From assembly GCA_034620365.1 (NCBI GenBank), contig JAQGEQ010000263.1:1550001-1614000 (forward strand): a stretch of DNA of 64,000 bases. The letters are read 5' to 3'. Shown one piece after another: positions 1-61,912 of this stretch. Both the position numbers and the translations under genes were made by a program. The number at the start of each line of letters is the position of its first letter. Position 1 is the first letter of the stretch. Below the pieces are notes generated by a model. That model saw only the letters and a list, made by a program, of their open reading frames with translations, ran no database searches and had not been told where the DNA came from. The stretch is from Pegea sp. RAD2-039 (taxonomy: Eukaryota; Chordata; Thaliacea; Salpida; Salpidae).

Positions 1-3000
1 TTACTTAATTTACCCATTTTGTATTTTCAAAAATTAAAGCATGTTTTTCAAACTATTTGAAATAAATCCTTTTTTTTTAATCATTACTGTCTGATAACTT
101 TTTGATTCTAGCATTTATACTTATTCAAATTAACAAAAGTAATAAAAAAAGTTAAACAACTTTTATTGACCCCTATTAGCTGAATGTTTTTTAACAAACT
201 ACCGCCTACAAGAATAAAATTGATTTCTATTATCTGCTATAATACATCTGCTTTATCTACGCAGTACACTAAAGCAAAATTTAATTATGCAGAAAGAAAT
301 CAATGATGAAACAAGTGCCTACTAAACTCTACGCTTTTTGGTTACTCTCGAATTTGAGATAAATGTGAATAAAAGTATTATTTTCATTCATTATTTATAT
401 ATGATCAGAAAACATTACTTTTAACACGTGACTGTTAAACTGATTTACAAAAGCAAACTTACTCTTAAAAATTTAGTAACGAAATTTACTTTACATGATT
501 TAAATCAAGTTCCTGTTTTCCAGATCGTGTCAATACTCATTTTAGCTGAAGCTTATCAGATAATATGATAGTTTACTTCAGAAACTACTAATCTATCAAG
601 TCGTTTTCTGACTTAATGTTTCCGTCTACTTCTTTAGAAACTCACACTAGTAAAACAGCTCCCTCGAATTCCATCAATTTATTTTCTAGATCATATCAAA
701 CATTGACAGAAAAAAGATTGCTAAAAACACGTTGTTCACCTTTTTAAACGATCTATCTTATTTTTGACTCAAAGAATAAAACATATCACTATCATAAATA
801 AAAGCTTTATACGCTAGCTTACAAAAAGATAATATTTTATTTTTTATGAAATGCCACAAAAGTATTTGGTTAACGATTATAAAAGATGTGATTACAGTGC
901 TAGAGTTTACGTAAGATATGAAAACGTAATCTTATAATTTTGTTTTGTTGTTTTTTTAGATTTTTATTATTACAGAGTGAAAAAATCATCTCAACAAACT
1001 TGATAGTGATATAAGAAATTAATAAGTCATCAACTGGACGAAAAATCAAAAGTTGTTAAAAGTTTTATTTTTAAGAATATAATTCATGTTAAGTTTGTTT
1101 CAAACGTTCAATTCAATCAAAATGTTTACTTTTATTTACATTTTTCCTACCTAGTGTAGATAAATGTTTTATATGTTTAACAAAATATTGCTAGTTAAAA
1201 GCGTTACTATTCCTTATTTATCAAATTTCGAAGAAACCCCTAAAAACGTTGCTTTACTGTTTACTTTTTTATCAGTAGCATAAACAAACTGAAAAATAAT
1301 TGTATCAGTAGTAAAGAAAAAATATAAAATATATATTTATTGAAATTTATAATCATTAAAAGCTCAAATATAAAAGCAATAATTTATCTGAACATTTTCT
1401 TTTAACCTATAAGCATTGATTTTTCTATTTTTATTCTTTGGTATGTTGTTGTAATTAAGATAAATGAACCAAAACAAACTAAATAGTTAGAGATTAAATG
1501 CTCTTCCCTGAATAGCTGACTAAATTGACATTAAAAGAAAACTATTTTATCTTTATCTATTTAAACATTCTACTTTCGTACGATTTAAGTAAGACAACAT
1601 ATCAAAAGAACTATTTAGTTTTACAGTAATATCGTTTTAATTATAGTATTCGCAACAAGTGTCAATTCTTGAAGTTCTTTTTAAATCAACTGAATCCCTT
1701 AAATGATCAGATTTCGTTATCAGCAAGAAATAAATTACTAGCAAGAAACCATAAGCAAAACTTTTGTCAATTGTATTTTGACAAACCTAGCTTTGTTTAA
1801 ACTTATAAGGTATATATGGCCTAGTGCTTTTATAAATTAATAAAAGAATGATTAAATCACAAGTATTTTAGAACAGATTATTTTGCTTTTATAAAAATCT
1901 GAAGAAATGCTTAAGCTGATAAAATTAGGAATAACAACTCAACTTGGCTTATAATCTATTATTTGTTTATGTTAGCTTTTAATTGACAATAATTGTTCTG
2001 TTCGACAAGCTAGATAAAAATATTAACTCATTTTCTTTAGAAAATTTGGCAACATTTTCGATAAATTTACCCTTTAATTAAATTTGTTATAAATTCTTAG
2101 AAATTGTTTACTACTAATTATAATATTAATTTGCAACAATAAACAATTCTAAAACATTCACATGACTGTAAATTGTATTTGAGGTATAAAAACAAAATTA
2201 AGTTGAACAAAAATTGTATTTCATAACAGCTCTTTACAAATAATTTAGCTCAAAATATTTTAAGTCTACATATCAAAAGATATTAACACGGTCTTTAATT
2301 TGTACTTAAATCTTAACACCAAGTTATAGCTCAGAACTAGTGATATGAGAACCTTTTTCCTGGTGTTATCTTCTTTCAGTTCCTTCAATTCAGTTTTAAA
2401 ATATCTTTAAAGTGTTTACAACCAGTCTCAGCTACAACTTATTTACATTAGTATATACTAGCAACTGATTTGTAAATAAACAGATTAAAACCACAAGCTT
2501 TCAAAACAAATTATTTTCAAGATTTTACTAGAAAAGCTGATCAAAAAATTTCAATTTTAAAAACAGGATGTTGTGCAGAGAAGCTTAAATGTAAATTTGC
2601 TAATAATTTTTTTTACCTACTGATGAAGCTATACAATATTTGCTTATTTTTAGCTAAAGTAGCGACGCAAAAGTTATTTGAAAATCTTACAGATTATGAT
2701 AACAAAACATTTAATCAAAATTTTGGTTTGTGTTATTACTTCTTAAAGGCTAAATCATTCACAAGTAAGCTTGTTAAAAGTCACATGACTTCTTAAACCT
2801 TAAATGTTAATATTCCCATTTTTACTACAAAAACGGTTAACAAACTTTAAAAGTAATCAGCAAAATTCAACTTAATAAATAAGAAAATTTTGAATTGAAT
2901 GATTATATAAAATTAATTTCTCAATTTTTTAACTTTAAAACCTATGCTAAGATGTTATATTCTCATTGTACTTTGTTCTCTATTGGGCACTTACTTTAGC

Positions 3001-6000
3001 TGCTAAAGTAAAATCGATAACAAAAAACAAAACTTTATAGTATAAAAGCAACTACATTTTCTAATACTGTTAGCTTAAAACTATTTGAAAAAATAAAAAT
3101 ACTTTTGATTATAACACAATAGCTCATAAATTTCAAATAACATTTTCGAAGTTAAATTTAAATTTTAATGTATATCGGATTTTTCACACTAAAACTACAA
3201 TTGCATTTATTTTTTCTTATAAAATTCGAAGAAAAAACTATTTGAAAATTTATTTTTCTACGATTTTAGGAAAGTAAAAAAGTTATTTAATGAAACCGAC
3301 TAAGGATTTAATAGCCTAAACCTCGATTTACTGCGGTTTATTCATAACTTCACTAATGAAATCTTAAGCTTTAAATTATATAATTTGTAAATTACTTATC
3401 AGTAAACTCAACTTTTAAATTAATTGCTTCATTGTGATACTGCAAAGTTACATTTGACAATTTTTAGATCAGTAAGTAGAAAATGCTAGCTGTAAATTAG
3501 TCACTTGAAGCGTTTTAAAGTGATTTCATTTCGTTCAAACAGTAGTTTTCATGTAACACATATAAAAATCAAAAAAAATGTAATTAAAATACTTCTAAAC
3601 AAAGCTTTATCTTATTTACAAATAAAAAATTTAAAATTTTTTAGTTTAGACTATTTAATAAAAGTAGATATTATAAAATAATATTTAAAATAAAGTTAAA
3701 AACAAACAACTTAAAAAGCTGTTTTATAATATTTGAAAATCATTGTAAAGTTGAATACCAATAAACAACAATATTTTCAATTAAAAAGTTTTTGTTGCAA
3801 TATCTTTAGTGTACGTCATTTTTTATAATTGTGATTTACTTTAATTGTAAAAAGATTTAAATATTAATTACGTTTTAAGTAAATGTCTTCAATTAAACTC
3901 TAAAAATCTTTGACATTTTGAGCCCTTTGATAAGACACCCACGTCAAAAATGATTATAATAAACTAAAAAGTTAAAAGTTTTGTTCAAATAATAACAAGT
4001 TAAGAAATTAGTTTATTTTAAAAAAATATTCACAAAAACCTTTAGCTTTATAACTTTTTTTAACCGTTACACAAGCGTAGATATAAAAAAGAATTAATTT
4101 AGCCTTATTGCTTTGTGGTTATAATCGATTTAAACTAAAGAGAAATGGACTTTTTTCTATTTTATATATAGTGTCATGAACATATCTAAAAGTTTAAAAA
4201 CTTGTAGTTTATTATCATAGTTTGTTATTTTACAAAATAACTTCATCAATAAACTTTAAAAATATGTAGTATGTGCTAAAATTTCCGAAGGTTTCTATAT
4301 GAACAAATGTTTTTATTCATTACAATCTTACTAAAGCTAAATAAAACATAGATATGCGATTATTAACAAAACAATGACTAATTTTGCTAAAATAATTTTT
4401 AAAAGTCTGTTAAGCTAAGCTAGCAAATATTTTGCTAAATTTCAAACAATATCTTAAAAAATCTGAAAACACAAACTGATTAATCCTTAGATTTACTTAA
4501 AACAAAAGTCTTGACAAGTTATTATTTAAAAGATAATAATAACATTGTAGTTTTTGTAATTAAGCTCGTCATTCTATACCGTTTGCAATGCTTTGAGATC
4601 AATAGCAAAGGTCTTATTGAATGCGAATTTATTTTATGAAAGATTAGGAAGCTCGCAATATCCTTAAATTTGTTTGACGTATTTTGTGCTACAAATTTGT
4701 TAGAAGCAAGTTTTTAGTAGTCTTCAACTCACCAAATTTACTTTTCTTCTTGTGGCTTAACACTTATATTATTTTTTTAATTACTTATACTTATTTCTTT
4801 TTTATCTACATAAATAACTTGTTTAGAATATTTTACCTTATTTATAGTATATTTCTTGGCATTTATATTCATTATTACTATGATTAATCTATATCTAAAA
4901 TAAAAATAGTATCTAATATCGAAATAATATACATAGTTTATTGTAAAATTGTTTTATTGTAAAATCAATAACCTCAAAATCCATGAAAACTTTTAGTAAT
5001 CAGCTTGTTTATAGTTTCATCTAAATTCAATTACCAGTAATTTATCACTGACTATTATATTGGTTATTTAATGTATAACGTTGCAACAACAACATAAATA
5101 AAATAAACTGTTTGATGTTAACTTCTAAAAAAAATAAATCTATTTACTGCTGCATAAAACTCTAGTCTCTACCAGAACAAATTTAAAGATATCAGCTAGA
5201 GTGGATACTTTTATAACCAATCAAAGTCACAATGATAAAACAAAGCTCACCGAATAATATACACAGTTAAAAGCACCCTCATTTACAAGTATTGCGATAT
5301 TATAGTTTATCAACTTCTTGTTACACTATTCTGCTTCACTTTACTAAAAGAAGATAGTTTTAAGAAGAGACATTACTTAAAAATTCTTCTAATTAATTGG
5401 CTGACGTGTTTATATATCGACCTTCTTTGAAAAAAATATTTGATTTTAACCAATTGCTACATATCGTATAACTATTATCAAGTATTTTTATTGGTTCTTT
5501 TACATAAAATTAAAACCGACTTTTAATTTTTTTAAATTAAAAAAATATATATTTTGGTCTCAAATGCTCTTTGGCAGATGTTAGAAGTAATTGAATTGAG
5601 TTTTTTCTGCAAAATTTATTTTATTTTTTCAAGATAATAAAAATAAAGAAATTATGTAAGAATTTTTTTTTAATTTATTTAAGATTTGCCTGATTTTGTT
5701 TTTTACTGCAAAATAAATTGTAATAAAAAGTTGTAATCAAAGTTTTATTGAAAAAAGAGTTATACAAAGTTAGCTATTTAAACTTGTATAACTGTACAAA
5801 TTTTTCAAAGCAAAAGAACCATTATTCGGAAATTTTTCAACTTACAAAATAAACTGACTAAAATTGTAACTTACTTTTAATAAACAAACTAATTCAATGA
5901 TTTAATACTTTTGCAAGTAATATTAATTTAGAAATAAAAAATTAAATAAAGTTGATGTTCTTTAACAGTTTGCTTTTATACTTTTCTTCCGCTAGGCGAT

Positions 6001-49600: not shown

Positions 49601-52600
49601 TCATCATCACTTGATGAGCAAAGAGCATGTCTTGGCCTCAAGAATTAGTTTATTGTATAATCAATATGTGGATCGAAGACACAAAAATTACATCAATTTT
49701 TTTACTGAGAAGTTAGCAACGCTTCGCAACGCTGTTAGTGTCCTTCAACAGAATCCAACATCTCAAAATGAAATCGGTGAGGACATAAGTGATCCTTCAC
49801 ATGCAAAATGATTGAGATTGAATCTTTAGATGAGGATCTTCCGACGTTAGAAGATCGTCTTTATGATTTTATGTCTGAGATAAGACTCACCACGAGACAA
49901 CTAAACATCGCTGAGATGGAAGAAAGAGATTTAATGAGAAGAATCATTGAAGATTGGAATCGTATTAAAGATCTGCGTAAGAAGCAAGGATATGTCAACA
50001 CCAGCATCAAATTAACTATTCAATCTGAAGAGGTTTAGAATGGTTTTCTCGTTCGTACATCAGTAATTTACATCCATTAAATAGATAAATAGTGAACTTG
50101 ATCAAATCCGGTGGGAAAGAGAAGTTAATTTGGAAATGAAAGAAAGGAAAATGGAATTTGAAGCGACGGTTTGGAATCCTTATCGAGAAAAAGTTTCCAA
50201 ATATAAACTCGAGTTAAAAGTGATTCCAAATAAATTTTGATAATTTCAACAAGTTTTTTAAAATCTGAAATTTTGTTTGAAGGAATGGAAAAAGAAGAGA
50301 AAACATCAAGAACGGATGAGAAAGGGATTAGAAGATGATGAAGTGGTGAATGAAGATGAGACTGATGTAGGATTTTCACTTTTTGTGTTTGGAAACACTT
50401 AAATGAAACAACTTTGTATTTGAAGGGAACAGATACAGGAAATTTGATTACAATCTCAGGGAACATTGACAAACCCCAAAAACCAGTAGCTCCTCCTAAA
50501 TTCAACAAAGATCAAGTCCGGGAGGCGATCAAGGAGAGTCTTTTGAAGCATCGAAGGAATCCTGGTGAGTGATCCAAGTGATAAAACATCGATAACATCT
50601 TCGAAACAGGGGAACCCCGGATATGGTTACTCCTCGGACACACTTCATCTATCACGACTTCTGGGACATCATCTCTAACTTCAGATGAGATAAACAGAAG
50701 AAAAGCTGTTGATAAATGTCAAATCTTCCTAAAAATCTTCTTTAACGGAGATGAAGTCTTTACAACTGAGAGGAGAAGACTAACTCAGGATTTTAAAGTT
50801 AATTTCGGATCGATCTTCCGAATTGTAATCAATCAGTGGCCGGAAAACTTGAAGGTTTGTTGAGAGGAGAGCAGAGGAAGATCTTGTGATTGATGCGAGA
50901 CTCACTTTCAGGCAAAGATCTATGAAGACCAGCTCATCGGATCTTCCATGATTGCTGGGATGAGTTTATTGATCCCTGAGATCAGCGTCAACTCAGATAA
51001 CGTGAGATTAAAAGAAGTGGAGTTTGTAGGAGATCGTGAGATCACCTATGATCACGCCGGAGTTGGGAGCAAGACACGAATCCAGTTATCAGAAGATCAA
51101 CCAACCTCATTTCTGACCACTAGAGGGCACCTGATATGTAGTTTATGTTGGGGACTCGATGAGGTTGGAGAAGTCTTAGCTCCGAAGAATGCGGATCAAG
51201 TCGTGATACGAGAAGGATTTGGAGATGGGAATCTACTTCAAAAATCGACGATGATAGCGTCTGGTGCCATGGAAACGCTTGGAATCGATGTTGTTCAAGA
51301 TCCAGAAGCCTTATCGAAGTGGTTACAACAAACAAGGATTGATCCTAATCATCCAGACAACTCTGATCTTCTTCCACTCATCGAAGACTCTACTGGAAAA
51401 GAAGTTATTTATTCGTCAGATTACTTCCGACTCGAACAGCTTCAGGTTGGTTGAAATCTTCACTGAATCCGATTCAAAAAGATTCTGTGATGTAGGAACG
51501 CTTTAATTTCGCTTCGGATTTGTTCTTCGAGAAAAACAGACTCCGGATGTTGATGTTGCGTCATAAAGAAGAAGAGGAGTTTCGGAATTTGACGATGATT
51601 CCTCCAAACGATCACGAGATCTTGGAGTCTGCTTTCACTATTTACGAGAATCGACTGAAAGAGAAGAATTCGTTGGAAAACTTCGCAGTGGATCGAAAAG
51701 GTGAGATCACAAGTAAAGGAGGCTCTTCATCTTGATTGTTTATCCAGGATTGTTAAATGAGCACCGATTAGAAGTCTTGAGATTCCGGCGGAGAATCAAA
51801 GATGCAGTGATCCACAGATTCCATATTTCGCGCCACATCTTCACATACGAAGTAGATCTTCATCAGATCATCTTTCACATCTTCAATCTGATCTTTAACA
51901 GGACATAGTTCATGAAGATAAGATTCCAGACACAAACTTCTTATTTGTCGCGTTTAAAAACATCTTCCATCGCGAAAGACCTCTCAGACCCACTAAACAT
52001 GAACGTAAAAGAGCAAATGCCAACACTCTTGTCGATGGACAGATTAAACTCCTCGTCAATGTGGTCCGAGCCTACAATGTCCCTGTTCGTGAGAGCAAGA
52101 ACAAGGTCCCATTCACCTCCAGTGAATATCAACTCAGTAAGATCTGAACGATCTTTCAAAATCTTCTCTTTATCTTTGTCTTCAGATCCAGGTCAGAACA
52201 GGATGAGTACAGCGGGTGAAACAATCAAATCTAAGAAGTTTGAGTGTTCCCCTTTTGTTGCTGTCTCCTTTCAGGACCATTTTACGACCACTAATATATC
52301 AGATGGTCCCCAACCTAATTGGAACGAGGAATTAAAGCTTCCATTTACTTCACCAGGCGATTATTCGCCCTCTACCCTTCAAACCGTCAACGATACCGTC
52401 TACATCCATCTGTTTGATCGGTTTGTTCCGATACTTCGGAATCTTTTATCTGATTCCATGAATTTTGTAGAGTTGTTGATCAAGTCGATTTAGCTGATAG
52501 AAATGAAGATCCTAACATTGTAGCTTACCGGACCCACAATTACTGGTTAGGGTCCTTAAGTCTCCCATTCTCAACTATTTATCATCAGGGGAAGATTGAA

Positions 52601-55958: not shown

Positions 55959-56513
55959 TCAAAAATTTGCAGATAATTCACTCTTTTTTTTCAAATCACA
56001 TTTGAAGAGTTTCTGGATTTGTTTAATTGATTGCTGATAAAATGATTGGTCATCAATCGAACCAGCTTGAATAAACCAATCACGATTCTTTAACAAGTTT
56101 TCGAGATTCAAGTAACGCGTCAAATAGTCGATCTCCCGCGCTTCTGGAAGATCTTGTTTATTTGCGATTACCGCGATGGGTTGCTTGTCAAATGATGTCA
56201 TCTTCACCACTCTTTTAAGCTCTTCTCTTGCTTCTGTGAGTCTGAATCCATCAGAACTATCCACTACAAACACAATTGCATCTGCTGTAGGCAACATCAG
56301 GTCCCAAAAACCGCGATACCCTGGTCTCCCTGGCAACTCAACCACTTTTGCTTTCTTCTTTTTGCCTTTTATCATCACTTTACTATCCAGTATATTTAAG
56401 CCTCCACTCAAAAATCTCGTTTGCGTGATGTCACGAAGAATCGAAGACTTTCCTGATCCTTGCATCCCGATCACAGTGATAGTGGGTCTAAATCTTGAGG
56501 TTGAATTGCCCAT
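55959..56513 (-). CDS. Divergent ARF-like small GTPase A, intronless, 184 aa, potential N-myristoylation
   Basis: The length and motif order are those of the ARF/ARL family. The protein begins MGNSTSRF, a good N-myristoylation context (Gly2, Ser6), as in ARFs that anchor to membranes. The P-loop GMQGSGKS is at 16-23 (ARF GLDNAGKT). AIVFVVDSSD follows around 79-88, the guanine-specificity motif NKQD is at 118-121, and IQAGS (138-142) stands where ARFs have IQATCA. The switch regions are abnormal. The WDxGGQ motif is replaced by VELPGR (58-63), losing both the Asp and the catalytic Gln, and no PTIGFN switch I can be seen. Nucleotide binding is likely, but GTP hydrolysis and the usual switch mechanism are doubtful. 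No intron interrupts the frame. It is the first of three such genes within 6 kb, and the partner is unknown. Confidence 0.8.
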   Translation of the reverse strand: MGNSTSRFRPTITVIGMQGSGKSSILRDITQTRFLSGGLNILDSKVMIKGKKKKAKVVELPGRPGYRGFWDLMLPTADAIVFVVDSSDGFRLTEAREELKRVVKMTSFDKQPIAVIANKQDLPEAREIDYLTRYLNLENLLKNRDWFIQAGSIDDQSFYQQSIKQIQKLFKCDLKKKSELSANF

Positions 56514-59280
56514 TTTCTAGTTTTTAATTTTTTTAACTTATTTTTGCTGCAAAGTTAAAAAAATTTCAAAAAAATTGAAAATTTTTGGTTTGATAAAATA
56601 TATAAAATAAGAAACTAATTTTCAGTCATTTTAGACAATTATTCAGCATGAAAGAAAGTTCCGAAAAAAAACTTTCTCATTTCTCTATAACTAAACATCA
56701 ATTTGATAAAAATCTTATAAATCCTTACATATCAAAAGTAAATAGCCTTAAAGAAAACTAAGAAATACTGGCTATTAGCGAAAACTAAGAAATACTGCCT
56801 ATTAGCGAAAACTAAAGAAACAAAATTATTTTCACTTAAAATCGACTAACAATTTTCTAAAGTTTTTCTAGAACTGATTTTTAAAGTTTATATAAAAAGT
56901 TCTTCTTATAGTTAGTTTGAGATAATTTTGTTTACTTAAAATTGATTTTATTGAGAAAATTAGTTTTAAAACAGAGCAATTTAAAATTAAATTTGAAAAA
57001 AAATATGAAATTTTTAAAAAAATTAATGTAATTTGTTATTTTGCAGATTTGTTGCGAACGTTCAAATTTATGATGAAAATTTTATCAAAATTTATTTCAA
57101 TTATCCATTAATTTGATGTAATATTTCAAAAAGTTTTATTTGGAAATTGTTTCAGTTTTTTATTCATGAATTTATTGATGATTTTTTAATTATTTTATTC
57201 AAAGTTTTTATCTTTGCTGTATTTCTGTAAGTTTTTTCTACTGATAGTAAATTTCAAAGTTTACCTTCTTCAAAAATTTATCAAACATCAAATTATTCTG
57301 AATTGAGTTTTAAAAAAAATTAATAATTTAAAATATTAACTTGTTAGAACTGACATTCTGAAGAAAAATTTCGCAAAGCTGACTAATGTTTTTACTTAAA
57401 ACTAGAAAACATCTATTTGAACTTTATTTGAATATATAATAAAGTTTTAATTTTAAACTTAATTTATAAAAATATTAGAATAAGTTTTCGATAGACTCAA
57501 AAATATTTACCATTTTAAATCAGTATTTACTTGATACAGCTAAAAATAAACAAAATTTAATATAAGCTTAAAAAATAAATAATTTGTTTCTATAAAATTC
57601 ATCTTATATAAAAAAAAAGCTTTCAATTTTAATAAAATATTAGTTTATATTAATCTTGGTAAACCATTTACAATAATAAAATGAAATAAAGCATTTCCTA
57701 ATGCTATTTTTTAAATTATTGATATGAACTTTATACTAATTAATTACATTTCTAAATTTCAATTAACCTAATAATAGCAGAAAAATAACTTGCCAATGAT
57801 TGATTAAAGTAATGGAAATTAATCTATTCAATCTCTAAAATCAGATTTGTCAAACTATTGTTGCAGAAAAAATTATTTCAATGGAAAAATTCTTATTTTA
57901 TTTCAACTGTTGACTTTGTTACCCTGCTTTTTTAATTGTCCTAAAAATATAATATTGCTAAAAGGATTTTTTTTTCAATTAGTGAAATATTTATTAATAA
58001 GATATTTTATCGAGTTACTTAAAATCTAAAACACTTTAATTAAATTTACACGTGTTTAGTTACCAAATATATCTGTACTAGCTTTCTATAGAACAAAAAC
58101 ATTTTGGCTTCCAAAAACAAATTTATTGTTCGATTTAAAACAACATTCAGATCATTAAGAAGCTTTTTAAAAATATTTCATTTTTGTAACGGTTGATTCG
58201 CGTTTTAAGGTAATTAAAAGAAAAATATTCAAAACTAGCTTACATCATTAAGCTTACATAACCTAAATACACATCAAAAGTCATAGTATAAGTATAATTA
58301 TCAACTTAATGTTTTCAAAGAATATTGATCTTAATATATTTTAAATAGTTCAAAGTAAATATAGTAACATCAAATAAAGTTCGGAAATTTTCTTTAGATT
58401 CTGATATGATACATTTAATATAACAAGAGTTAAGTAAACTAAAAAATTTGCATAAGTATTGTACAATTAAAAAGTAGAATTATTTTATAAAGATATTATG
58501 TTACAGTAGAGTACCAGGAAAATATCTCAATAAAAGGAGAAAGATTTGTACAAACAAAAGTAAAGAACAAAATAGTTGACTTTAAATAAACTAAGGTTTA
58601 TTTTTGATATTATTTTTATTATTCTTTTACTGATAGTAAAATAATTCTATTAGTTTCCAGTCTTATTTATTTATCAGTTAGTTAATTTTAGATACATCTT
58701 AAAAGAAGAAAATTTAAGTGAATATGCAAGTCATAAAGTGTGAAGATTGTTTGATTTTATAAAATTGATTATCATTTAAATATTTAGGATCTTTAGTTTA
58801 ATTATCAAAAAATTATTGAAAAAATAGTTTAAAAAAAACAAGCTTTATATTTTACAAGTAAATAAAAAGAAAAACTCACAAGTATTATTTACTCACTAAA
58901 TATAGAAATTATAAAAGTAAAACCTACCCCTTTTCGTTCAAGTTGTATTTATAATCATTTGTTAAAAGTATTCTGTTTTATTAAAGTCATATACCTTAAA
59001 TTTATAAGTTTAATCTTTTACAAATTTTCAATTCTTAAAATTGATTTTAAACAAATATTAAAACTATTTTTCACAAAAGTGCAAAAAAATGAACTATTTT
59101 ATTGTAAAAATTTGTGTTGGTCGATCAAGAAATAAAATTTATTACATTAGACCTTTAGATAGACTTTAAAACTTCTTTGAATTTTCATAATTTAATGTTT
59201 TGATTATATTTACCCTAAAAATTTAAATACTTTATAATTAAACTTAGATCATTTTGTAATCCTTTTTTAAACTCTTAATC
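56514..59280. other. Divergent intergenic region between ARF-like genes A and B
   Basis: Genes A (minus) and B (plus) are head-to-head, 2.77 kb apart. The stretch is extremely AT-rich, contains the short tandem repeat listed at 56753-56816, and shows no exon or RNA gene. Confidence 0.5.
56753..56816 (+). repeat. 27-bp tandem repeat, 2.4 copies
   Basis: The unit GAAAACTAAGAAATACTGGC plus TATTAGC occurs at 56753-56779 and again at 56780-56806 with one mismatch (GGC to GCC), then 10 bases of a third copy. It lies about 240 bp upstream of the start codon of ARF-like gene A. Confidence 0.9.
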
Positions 59281-59862
59281 ATGGATGCTATCAAAAACAA
59301 ATTATCAATGAGTTTAATCAAGATGAAATTGATTTCATTTACACCAAGTGTTTTGTTTGTTGGGCCTAAGGGAGCTGGAAAAACAACAATTATTAACAAG
59401 TTGAAAGAAAGTAACGAGGAAGCATTGCCATCATCTCAAGCACAGGTTCAAGTACTGAAAATAGGAAAGAAAACAAAAGCCAAAGTTGTTGACTGTCCTG
59501 GCTCCACTTCGCATAGGCTTCATAATTTATCAGATTTTGATGCAATTGTCTTTGTTGTTGATAGTGGTAACGAAAAAATGTTTAAATTTGCTAAACTAGA
59601 ACTAACAAGGCTTGTAGGTTCTACATCTTTAAGGAAAACACCAATTTTAATACTTGCAAATAAACAAGATTGTGATTCTGCAGTCAGCGTTGAACAAATA
59701 GTTAATCGCTTAAATATCAAATCACTCCTAAACGATAGAATTTGGCAAATAGAACCCTGTAGTACTGTAAGTAACTTTGGATATTTAATTTCAATGAAGC
59801 AACTAAAACATATGATACTACAAAAAAAGCGGAATAGTTATTTTACTTATATCTTTATTTAA
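59281..59862 (+). CDS. Divergent ARF-like small GTPase B, intronless, 193 aa
   Basis: A single uninterrupted frame from ATG 59281. The P-loop GPKGAGKT is at 28-35, AIVFVVDSG at 88-96, LANKQD at 125-130 (NKQD 127-130), and EPCST at 158-162 is at the position of the ARF SA/IQATCA loop. The N-terminus MDAIKNKLSMSLIKMKLISF is longer than in a typical ARF, lacks Gly2 and looks amphipathic. The switch II motif is VDCPGS (70-75) instead of WDxGGQ, keeping Asp but losing the second Gly and the catalytic Gln, and a PTIGFN-like switch I is absent. The segment KTKAKVVDCPG resembles KKKAKVVELPG of gene A, so the two share a recent ancestor relative to ordinary ARLs. The C-terminal tail ends in aromatic residues (NSYFTYIFI). 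The function is unknown. Confidence 0.8.
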   Translation: MDAIKNKLSMSLIKMKLISFTPSVLFVGPKGAGKTTIINKLKESNEEALPSSQAQVQVLKIGKKTKAKVVDCPGSTSHRLHNLSDFDAIVFVVDSGNEKMFKFAKLELTRLVGSTSLRKTPILILANKQDCDSAVSVEQIVNRLNIKSLLNDRIWQIEPCSTVSNFGYLISMKQLKHMILQKKRNSYFTYIFI

Positions 59863-60560
59863 TTGAAAACAATTACTTATATATCAAATATCTTTTCTAT
59901 AACATCTATAAAAATAATCTTTTTGTTTTTACTTCTTTTGCAAGCCTACATTTTCTTACTTAAAATACAACAACTTGTTCTCCGATATTTCTTATAAAAA
60001 TAATTTGAAACAGATACATTAAGACAAGCATTATATTCTAATAAAGTTAAACATACAAACTTCCTGACATTTTGTTTATATTTATGTTTATTGCTCTAAA
60101 AGGCTAAAACTCAACTTATTAAATCTAAAACACTCAATTAAATGAATTGGAAAAAATTACTTTGACTTACTAATCTGTAAAACCTGTGTTATATAAGTAC
60201 TTTTGAGTTTTTGATCTAAAGTAATAAAGATCTCTTAATAAATTCTAGACTAATGCATTATAAAATATAACTTTTTTATAAAATAACTTTTTTGACCGCT
60301 TTTGCTTAAATCGATTTACTAAAGTTTATTACAAAAGTTAACTTTCTTGTGTAATCATAACTATTGTCTTATATTGTGAAATTAGACTTTTACATAAAGT
60401 TGAAATTCATGGTTTCAAACAGTATAAATAACAAAGAAATTTTGATTCATCAGAAGCGAAATCAAAAAGAATAGTAAACTTAAAATAAAAATTAATTGAA
60501 ATTAGAAGCATTACAAATTTTCGGTCGGTTAGAAATTAAATCATTTGTAAATCAGCTTAG
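59863..60560. other. Gene-free stretch after ARF-like gene B
   Basis: AT-rich DNA with no exon, RNA gene or clear regulatory element. No exact AATAAA lies within the first 100 bp after the stop of gene B. Confidence 0.45.
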
Positions 60561-60985
60561 TTAGTTAGTCTTTTTTCTTTATTCTGGCCTGCTTCGATTG
60601 AGAACGGCTATGCATATATATGCGTAAGTGTATAAGTGCCAGGGCAGAAGTTTTGGAATCCAGTTGCTGCCCGTGCAGCAGGATTTCACTCTTAATGCCA
60701 GCTAGGTTATGCATCGGAACAGACAGACTGATGCAGCTGCGCCTAGCTGGCGTCGCATGATTTTCCAGAATGACACTAAGTTAAGTGACGAACTGTCCAC
60801 GGGGCTCCAACTCTAGCTTTAAATTCAGAGTCTTGCATCTCCTAGAAGTGTTCACACTCACAGGGCCTTTCTACCCGGGTTTTTTACATTTACTTTTTCT
60901 TAGCACCAATATATGCCTACCTGGGATCGAACCCGAAAACACCCGCTCGGTAGGTAGTTATGGTGACCACTTCACCCAACACAAC
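60560..60985 (-). repeat. Long tRNA-derived SINE, minus strand
   Basis: This GC-richer island stands out sharply from its flanks. On the minus strand it starts near 60985 with TTGGGTGAAGTGGTCACC, which is like a tRNA 5' half with an A-box region. It continues to a perfect B box GGGTTCGATCCC at 60934-60923, followed by CAGGTAGGCATATA. The flanks of the B box (CGGGTT.GA.CCCAGGT.G, then CATAT) match the SINE head at 29.33-29.41 kb on the plus strand, so both derive from the same tRNA family. The roughly 320-bp body that follows shows no LINE tail like that of the 29-kb copy. An A-rich end lies near 60565-60580. No target-site duplication was found. Confidence 0.65.
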
Positions 60986-61369
60986 TAGTTCACCTTTATT
61001 TAGTTATCTATTGGTAACAAAGAATTAGCTTTTTCTTAAGAGAGCAGACCTAGATCAGTTTATCTTAATTTAAGATCCTATGAATACCACAACAAGATCC
61101 CGCTAGTCACCAACTGACACATTCATCTTAATGAAAAGACTAAATTTCAATCTTATCTTAAATATTTTTCTACTTTTATTTTGCTCGGTCGCGACTATTG
61201 AGTCATTTCATTTCTTGAAGGGCCGCTAAAAAAAGATCGGGCCCTCGAAAGCTCGAAGGAAATTATGTAACGGTCAAAAGTAGAAAAAATAATTGATTAT
61301 AAACTTTTTAATAAATAAATGTTCTATATTTTAAACCAAACAGAGTTTTAATTCAATTTTTTGATAAAA
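60986..61369. other. Upstream region of ARF-like gene C with a GC-richer segment
   Basis: No gene is seen. A less AT-rich segment at about 61183-61260 contains GGGCCGCT and CGGGCCCTCG around an A-rich spacer, then CTCGAAAGCTCGAAGG. It could be the edge of another repeat or a promoter-proximal element of gene C. I cannot distinguish these. Confidence 0.3.
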
Positions 61370-61912
61370 ATGTGCAAACAGAAATATTTGCCAGAAATTC
61401 TGCTCGTCGGATTAGACGGAGCAGGAAAGACTGAATTAATTCGTAATCTAAACAAAGAGCCTCTTGCAGATGATCAAAATAGAGGAGTCAAATCATATAT
61501 ATGTAAGATTGGAAAAAACTCAAAAGCTGAGATTTATGATTTTGTGGGAAATAAAAATATGAGAATGAATTGGTTAAGTTACCTGGAAACAACAGATGCT
61601 TTAATTTTCATGGTGGACAGTGGTGATGTACACCGTCTTAAAGAGGCTAAAAGTGAGTTGATTAAGATTTGTGGAAAACTTCCCTCATTAAATACTCCTA
61701 TTATGGTGATGGCAAACAAACAAGATGATCCGATAGCTGTTTGTAAGGAAACCATCCGGGAATTATTTGGATTAAGATTCATGATGGGTCTACGACCTTG
61801 GGATATTCAGGCTACTTCTAATAGTGACAAAAAGACTTACAAGCAAGCTTTGAAAAAACTTCAACGTATGATTCATAAATCTCGGAAATTAAACAGAAAG
61901 TTTAATTTTTAA
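61370..61912 (+). CDS. Divergent ARF-like small GTPase C, intronless, 180 aa
   Basis: Start ATG is at 61370; the three upstream codons are in frame but contain no ATG. This is the most ARF-like of the three. The P-loop GLDGAGKT (14-21) is close to the ARF GLDNAGKT, ALIFMVDSGD is at 77-86, NKQD is at 116-119, and WDIQATS (144-150) matches the ARF W.IQAT block. Switch II is nevertheless YDFVGN (56-61) instead of WDxGGQ, so the first Gly and the Gln are lost. It lacks Gly2 and the N-terminal amphipathic helix of ARFs, starting almost at the first beta strand. The C-terminus is strongly basic (HKSRKLNRKFNF). The shared KIGK..KAxxxD segment (IGKNSKAEIYD here, IGKKTKAKVVD in gene B) links it to gene B. 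Its function is unknown. Confidence 0.82.
   Translation: MCKQKYLPEILLVGLDGAGKTELIRNLNKEPLADDQNRGVKSYICKIGKNSKAEIYDFVGNKNMRMNWLSYLETTDALIFMVDSGDVHRLKEAKSELIKICGKLPSLNTPIMVMANKQDDPIAVCKETIRELFGLRFMMGLRPWDIQATSNSDKKTYKQALKKLQRMIHKSRKLNRKFNF

Follow-up and report, generated by a model that had tools for sequence, protein, structure and literature searches.

We analysed a window of 64,000 nucleotides from the salp Pegea sp. RAD2-039 (GenBank assembly GCA_034620365.1, contig JAQGEQ010000263.1, positions 1,550,001 to 1,614,000, forward strand), in which three ARF-like genes, here named A, B and C, carry replacements at the switch residues of ARF GTPases. The frames of 184, 193 and 180 residues within less than 6 kb that an original prediction had described were found at exactly these coordinates, all running from an ATG to a stop codon (Table 1). 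Each coding region is complete within one exon, with a 5' untranslated exon being possible, and the stop-to-stop frames begin 1 (A), 7 (B) and 6 (C) codons ahead of the ATG. The window is AT-rich (21–39% G+C per 2 kb), and for each of the three genes none of 20,000 base shuffles stayed open. The nucleotide identity of aligned codons is in all three pairs highest at position 2 (0.60–0.63), followed by position 1 (0.43–0.48) and position 3 (0.33–0.38). Because of this ranking and since all shuffles were closed, the frames are selected protein-coding sequences and not products of chance, the codon-position pattern being as expected under purifying selection.

Table 1: Genes A, B and C and their motifs, with positions in the window.
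Feature	Gene	Position	Strand	Basis
ARF-like protein P1, 184 residues, N-terminus MGNSTSRF	A	55959..56513	-	open reading frame list, Pfam, model
ARF-like protein P2, 193 residues	B	59281..59862	+	open reading frame list, Pfam
ARF-like protein P3, 180 residues, net charge of +10 over the C-terminal 30 residues	C	61370..61912	+	open reading frame list, Pfam, model
P-loop GMQGSGKS	A	56445..56468	-	sequence, residue table
P-loop GPKGAGKT	B	59362..59385	+	sequence, residue table
P-loop GLDGAGKT	C	61409..61432	+	sequence, residue table
VELPGR at the WDxGGQ site	A	56325..56342	-	residue table, realignments
VDCPGS at the WDxGGQ site	B	59488..59505	+	residue table, realignments
YDFVGN at the WDxGGQ site	C	61535..61552	+	residue table, realignments
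ANKQD guanine-recognition motif	A	56151..56165	-	residue table
ANKQD guanine-recognition motif	B	59656..59670	+	residue table
ANKQD guanine-recognition motif	C	61712..61726	+	residue table
MGNSTS, fits the pattern MGxxxS/T	A	56496..56513	-	sequence, inference

Pfam places all three proteins in the ARF family, as Arf (PF00025) is the best family for each of them (E = 2.8e-23 to 5e-31) with 82.7, 96.0 and 107.9 bits compared to a cut-off of 22.3 and to 37.9, 49.3 and 42.7 bits for the runner-up SRPRB. The folds predicted for genes C and A match the structures of ARL3, ARL2, ARF1 and ARL1. PMC3012027 gives as hallmarks of ARF/ARL proteins the Walker A sequence GK[ST] and NKxD together with the family-specific Ala and Gln of ANKQD, and GK[ST] as well as ANKQD with both of these residues are present in all three genes.

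Using the Pegea assembly itself (105.7 Mb, 387 contigs) we searched for relatives of the trio. In protein searches the two best matches of each gene are the other two (32–38% identity, E = 1.6e-23 to 3.2e-21), and the best outsiders are the family gene L004 for C (4.6e-18), Arf1 for A (7.9e-16) and Arl1 for B (1.5e-15). Phylogenetic trees were reconstructed together with unverified human reference sequences, on which the names of the Pegea family genes also rest. The trio forms a single clade in the tree of 41 rows (LG+G4; 90.7 in the Shimodaira–Hasegawa-like approximate likelihood ratio test (SH-aLRT), bootstrap 96), in the tree of 37 rows with a mixture model (bootstrap 96, SH-aLRT 88) and in the tree of 32 rows (99/96). 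The two smaller trees omit, because of incompleteness or long branches, four (L014b, ARL16, L047 and the Sar1 of L039) and nine of the 41 rows, respectively. The reciprocal best matches and the well-supported clade argue for common descent by local duplication, as had been proposed, and with the references used the three proteins do not fall into different known subfamilies. Among the segments cited as signs of this descent KxKAKVVxxPG is found in two genes and the third reads KNSKAEIYDFVG. The proposed expansion comprises three copies in all, as no further close copy was seen among the best candidates scored in the genome and the other matches score clearly lower.

All three genes possess the P-loop, the F[VM]VDS strand and NKQD, the WDxGGQ motif is replaced in each of them and PTIGFN is absent, all in agreement with the original prediction. 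Its list of motifs can be refined, as DxxG survives in two of the three genes and reads ExxG in gene A, a form also present in the reference ARL9, ARL10, ARL15 and ARL16 sequences. For the numbering of residues we mapped the trio onto the Arf1 of the same genome and compared it with 21 other family members from there. The place of Thr48 is taken by N (A), S (B) and N (C), that of Gly69 by P, P and V and that of Gln71 by R, S and N, and the places of Trp66 and Asp67 show V, V and Y and E, D and D, respectively. Gly70 is retained in all three, as are Gly29 and Lys30 of the P-loop and A125-N126-K127-Q128-D129. The letters at positions 48, 67, 69, 70 and 71 were unchanged in all 12 realignments; under other alignments the Thr48 place of gene C is occupied by R (ungapped) or D (phmmer), but never by Thr or Ser. 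Thr48 is retained by 20, Gly69 by 19 and Gln71 by 15 of the 21 other members, whereas none of the trio retains any of them. Gln71 is thus absent in six of these members, Thr48 otherwise only in L014b, and all 16 human reference rows possess Thr48. As all but one of the 21 relatives have Thr48, the change in the trio exceeds that in ARL10, ARL13, ARL15 and ARL16, which are reported to lack the Gln, and the suggested alteration of the switch chemistry extends to Thr48 and Gly69. A loss of the interswitch toggle does not follow, since in each gene, as in the own Arf1, the P-loop Lys lies 40 residues ahead of the DxxG Gly and the interswitch is therefore ARF-like in length.

In ARF proteins Thr48 coordinates Mg2+ and the gamma phosphate, Gly69 lies beside it and Gln71 takes part in hydrolysis. 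We lean, with some reserve, towards reading the trio as ARF-like pseudoGTPases that would hold the nucleotide but would not hydrolyse it and would switch poorly, being old tandem duplicates of one ARF/ARL gene, which was probably already intronless. As the P-loop Lys and ANKQD are kept in all three, the binding of guanine nucleotide is likely to be still under selection. Judged by their residues, the proteins would bind guanine nucleotide and show at most a very slow hydrolysis of GTP, which would make them class II pseudoGTPases (binding without hydrolysis), and GTP binding would cause no usual shape change. They might then act as standing membrane-linked binding partners that are controlled by expression, location or partners in place of a cycle of guanine nucleotide exchange factor and GTPase-activating protein (GAP). 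The link to the membrane could be an N-myristoyl group in gene A, which may be N-myristoylated as its MGNSTS fits the N-myristoylation pattern, and in gene C the very basic C-terminal helix, seen at residues 154–176 of the model. The residues ahead of strand 1 number 8 in C, 10 in A and, by alignment, about 22 in B.

Several points weigh against this reading. The Ser of gene B that faces Thr48 might still coordinate Mg2+, and gene A has a Ser four residues to either side of this place. The G5 motif (SAx) is weak in all three, so that the affinity for the nucleotide could be low or nil as in a class I pseudoGTPase. The structure models of C and A were built from alignments of three rows and are ligand-free, with predicted local distance difference test (pLDDT) values of 81.5 and 74.6. 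A test for an amphipathic N-terminus detected none in gene B, where 3090 of 5000 shuffles scored as high, but is uninformative as it also misses Arf1 (1413 of 5000).

The trio could instead be divergent members of the metazoan Arl10 lineage (ARL9/ARL10 in vertebrates), in which the Gln of switch II was already absent, and this we regard as unlikely, although it is the alternative with the most in its favour. ARL9/ARL10 is the neighbour of the trio in the 41-row tree (SH-aLRT 84.3, bootstrap 83) and in the 32-row tree (77/77), thus in two of three trees, and in the third the approximately unbiased (AU) test gives a p-value of 0.476 for joining them. The genome matches to an ARL10 query that outrank gene A are Arl1, Arf6, Arf1 and L004, all of which possess GGQ, and no separate Arl10 was seen among the stronger matches inspected for this query. 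However, the best match of the query is Arl1 (2.9e-24) and genes A (6.2e-17), C (4.2e-15) and B (2.7e-7) follow, the reference ARL9/ARL10 sequences retain Thr48 and Gly69, the branches are long and the references are unverified. Moreover, Arl10 has a transmembrane N-terminus, as described in PMC8358228, and no such region is present in the single-exon frames A–C, where an in-frame stop lies at most seven codons upstream of each ATG, with a further exon ahead of these being conceivable.

Since the human references are unverified, statements on the subfamily are limited, and the 37-row tree allows a placement with ARL9/10, L004, SRPRB, ARL15 or ARL6. Besides ARL9/10, the AU p-values for the trio joined with L004, ARL15, ARL6 and ARL3 are 0.427, 0.273, 0.232 and 0.058, and L004 joined with the trio gives 0.288 in the 32-row tree. 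In the 37-row tree itself the reference SRPRB stands beside the trio (89/79), a pairing that we suspect to be a long-branch effect because the end branch of SRPRB is the longest there. Although this tree pairs them, membership in SRPRB is rejected on the profile scores, with Arf being higher for all three. SRPRB, the signal recognition particle receptor beta (SRbeta), resembles the trio as its second-best Pfam family and in its DLPG-type switch II. It differs in that the Arf model scores 45–65 bits higher for the trio, which has no transmembrane anchor and keeps the ARF-type ANKQD and the W.I strand.

Somewhat less probable still is that the three proteins are ordinary cycling ARF-like GTPases working via other residues, such as a Ser in switch I, with a GAP contributing the residue that activates water. 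The intact Gly of DxxG, P-loop and ANKQD would agree with this, and the reference rows of SRbeta and Sar1, both active GTPases, have His at Gln71, with SRbeta also showing DLPG. Yet the switch positions vary from copy to copy, and all three proteins lack a Thr within seven residues of position 48. That the genes are decaying copies becoming pseudogenes, as the loss of motifs and the long branches might suggest, we regard as very improbable, since the frames are intact despite a protein identity of 33–38% and a position 3 identity of 0.33–0.38, no shuffle of any frame stayed open and the P-loop GxGK and ANKQD are invariant in the trio.

Poorly hydrolysing members of the family have been described before. 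ARL13B shows a very low intrinsic hydrolysis and has no catalytic Gln (PMC4868535), and ARL15, with Ala at the Gln place and a weak, micromolar affinity for GTP, is termed atypical in PMC10348743. A review (PMC12722892) reports ARL10, ARL13, ARL15 and ARL16 to be without Gln and describes classes of pseudoGTPases. Several ARLs are suspected to be non-cycling, and the ones named in this review lack the catalytic Gln. Like these atypical ARLs (ARL10/ARL9, ARL13, ARL15 and ARL16), the trio combines an ARF fold with a replaced Gln71, but unlike them it has also lost Thr48 and Gly69, which the human reference sequences retain. On the basis of its residues we see the trio as a new case of divergent atypical ARLs with a loss of the switch that is more complete than in the human references. 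A survey of the ARF family with over 2,000 sequences had 160 without an assignment and excluded extremely divergent, motif-disrupted ones (PMC8358228), and the trio would belong among the sequences unassigned or excluded there. A paper on such a trio was not found in the open-licence literature on ARF evolution, atypical ARLs, rotifer ARFs and loss of the switch I Thr, which is no proof of absence. Three sister proteins gripping the nucleotide with Thr48, Gly69 and Gln71 replaced would be a natural test of an ARF fold blind to GTP, and if binding without switching is true, surveys that discard motif-broken ARFs overlook working proteins.

Two other genes of the same genome are worth comparing. 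L004 (C46:422934-423437) is single-exon like the trio and among its nearest outside relatives (36% identity to gene C), but retains Thr48, GGQ and SAK and thus a normal-looking switch. L014b (C202:24986-25456), one of two adjacent single-exon ARF-like genes at L014 (C202:20001-28000), shares with the trio the single exon, a replaced Thr48 (Asp) and a degenerate switch II (DLDGD). It differs as NKxD is also lost (NVTS), as it lies on another contig, where it adjoins L008, and as it is not grouped with the trio in the 41-row tree. With Thr48, Gln71 and NKxD lost, L014b is perhaps a nucleotide-free ARF fold.

The absence of introns, which had been said to stand out, does not do so among relatives, as 10 of the 22 other modelled family members of this genome are single-exon (L001 Arf1, L002 Arl1, L003 Arf6, L004, L005, L006, L008, L011, L014b and L015). 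The 12 multi-exon members include Arl2, Arl3, Arl5, Arl6, Sar1, Arfrp1 and one Arl13-like gene. These counts come from a genome profile search with 118 matches, part of which was inspected and from which Ras-, Rab- and G-alpha-like ones were set aside. The trees, the residue table and the count of 22 exclude five incomplete members that look multi-exon, namely the ARL13-like pieces L049, L050 and L052, the second gene at C30:993846 and L038, whose model contains in-frame stops. With them the single-exon share is 10 of 27. Since single-exon relatives are common, retroposition is indistinguishable from the duplication of an already intronless gene. Between the copies no blastn match better than E = 0.001 was found in the flanking DNA; the best stretch shared by genes A and B, of 27 bases (E = 1.3e-4), falls within both coding frames. 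A repeat scan gave six two-copy direct families of 26–50 bases and one inverted pair, all short and 74–89% alike. A horizontal or viral origin is unsupported, as a scan of viral contigs gave one locus, L053, a normal GGQ ARF with 30% identity. This canonical gene is located at 2935-3483 of an IMG/VR contig that is classed as viral and may derive from a large DNA virus or from a host, next to a frame that presumably is thymidylate synthase-like.

Elsewhere in the genome Arl6- and Arl13-like genes are present. Two guide sequences of the rotifer Brachionus manjavacas (PMC10395877), with up to 2 and 3 mismatches allowed, and a spliced-leader pattern of bdelloid rotifers had no match. Four ARL13-like genes with near-equal profile scores, two per strand, lie within 25 kb at C5:314912-339648 (L050 and three matches), and further ARL13-like relatives are L047, L049 and L052; in the ARL13-like genes that were read, including one of the four, switch II shows GGA, GGE, GGG or AGE. 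Tandem single-exon genes were also seen at L010 (C32:1053001-1063000), with three genes that we assume to be Rab-like, one of which carries at its C-terminus a long series of VADETVAGE-type repeats, and at L026 (C3:2004001-2013000), with two G-alpha-like genes that are near-identical over most of their length and end in an unusual VFGSG.

Within the window, a dispersed repeat that looks like a short interspersed nuclear element (SINE) lies between genes B and C at 60600-61000 and contains GGATCGAACCC, which we take to be a tRNA-like box. It has 715 candidate places in the genome, and among the best 40 that were scored the 39 others show 72–80% identity. The window also contains C2H2 exons and, near the cluster at 50894-51451, an exon matching the N-terminal C2 domain of CC2D2A, presumably a gene of the ciliary transition zone.

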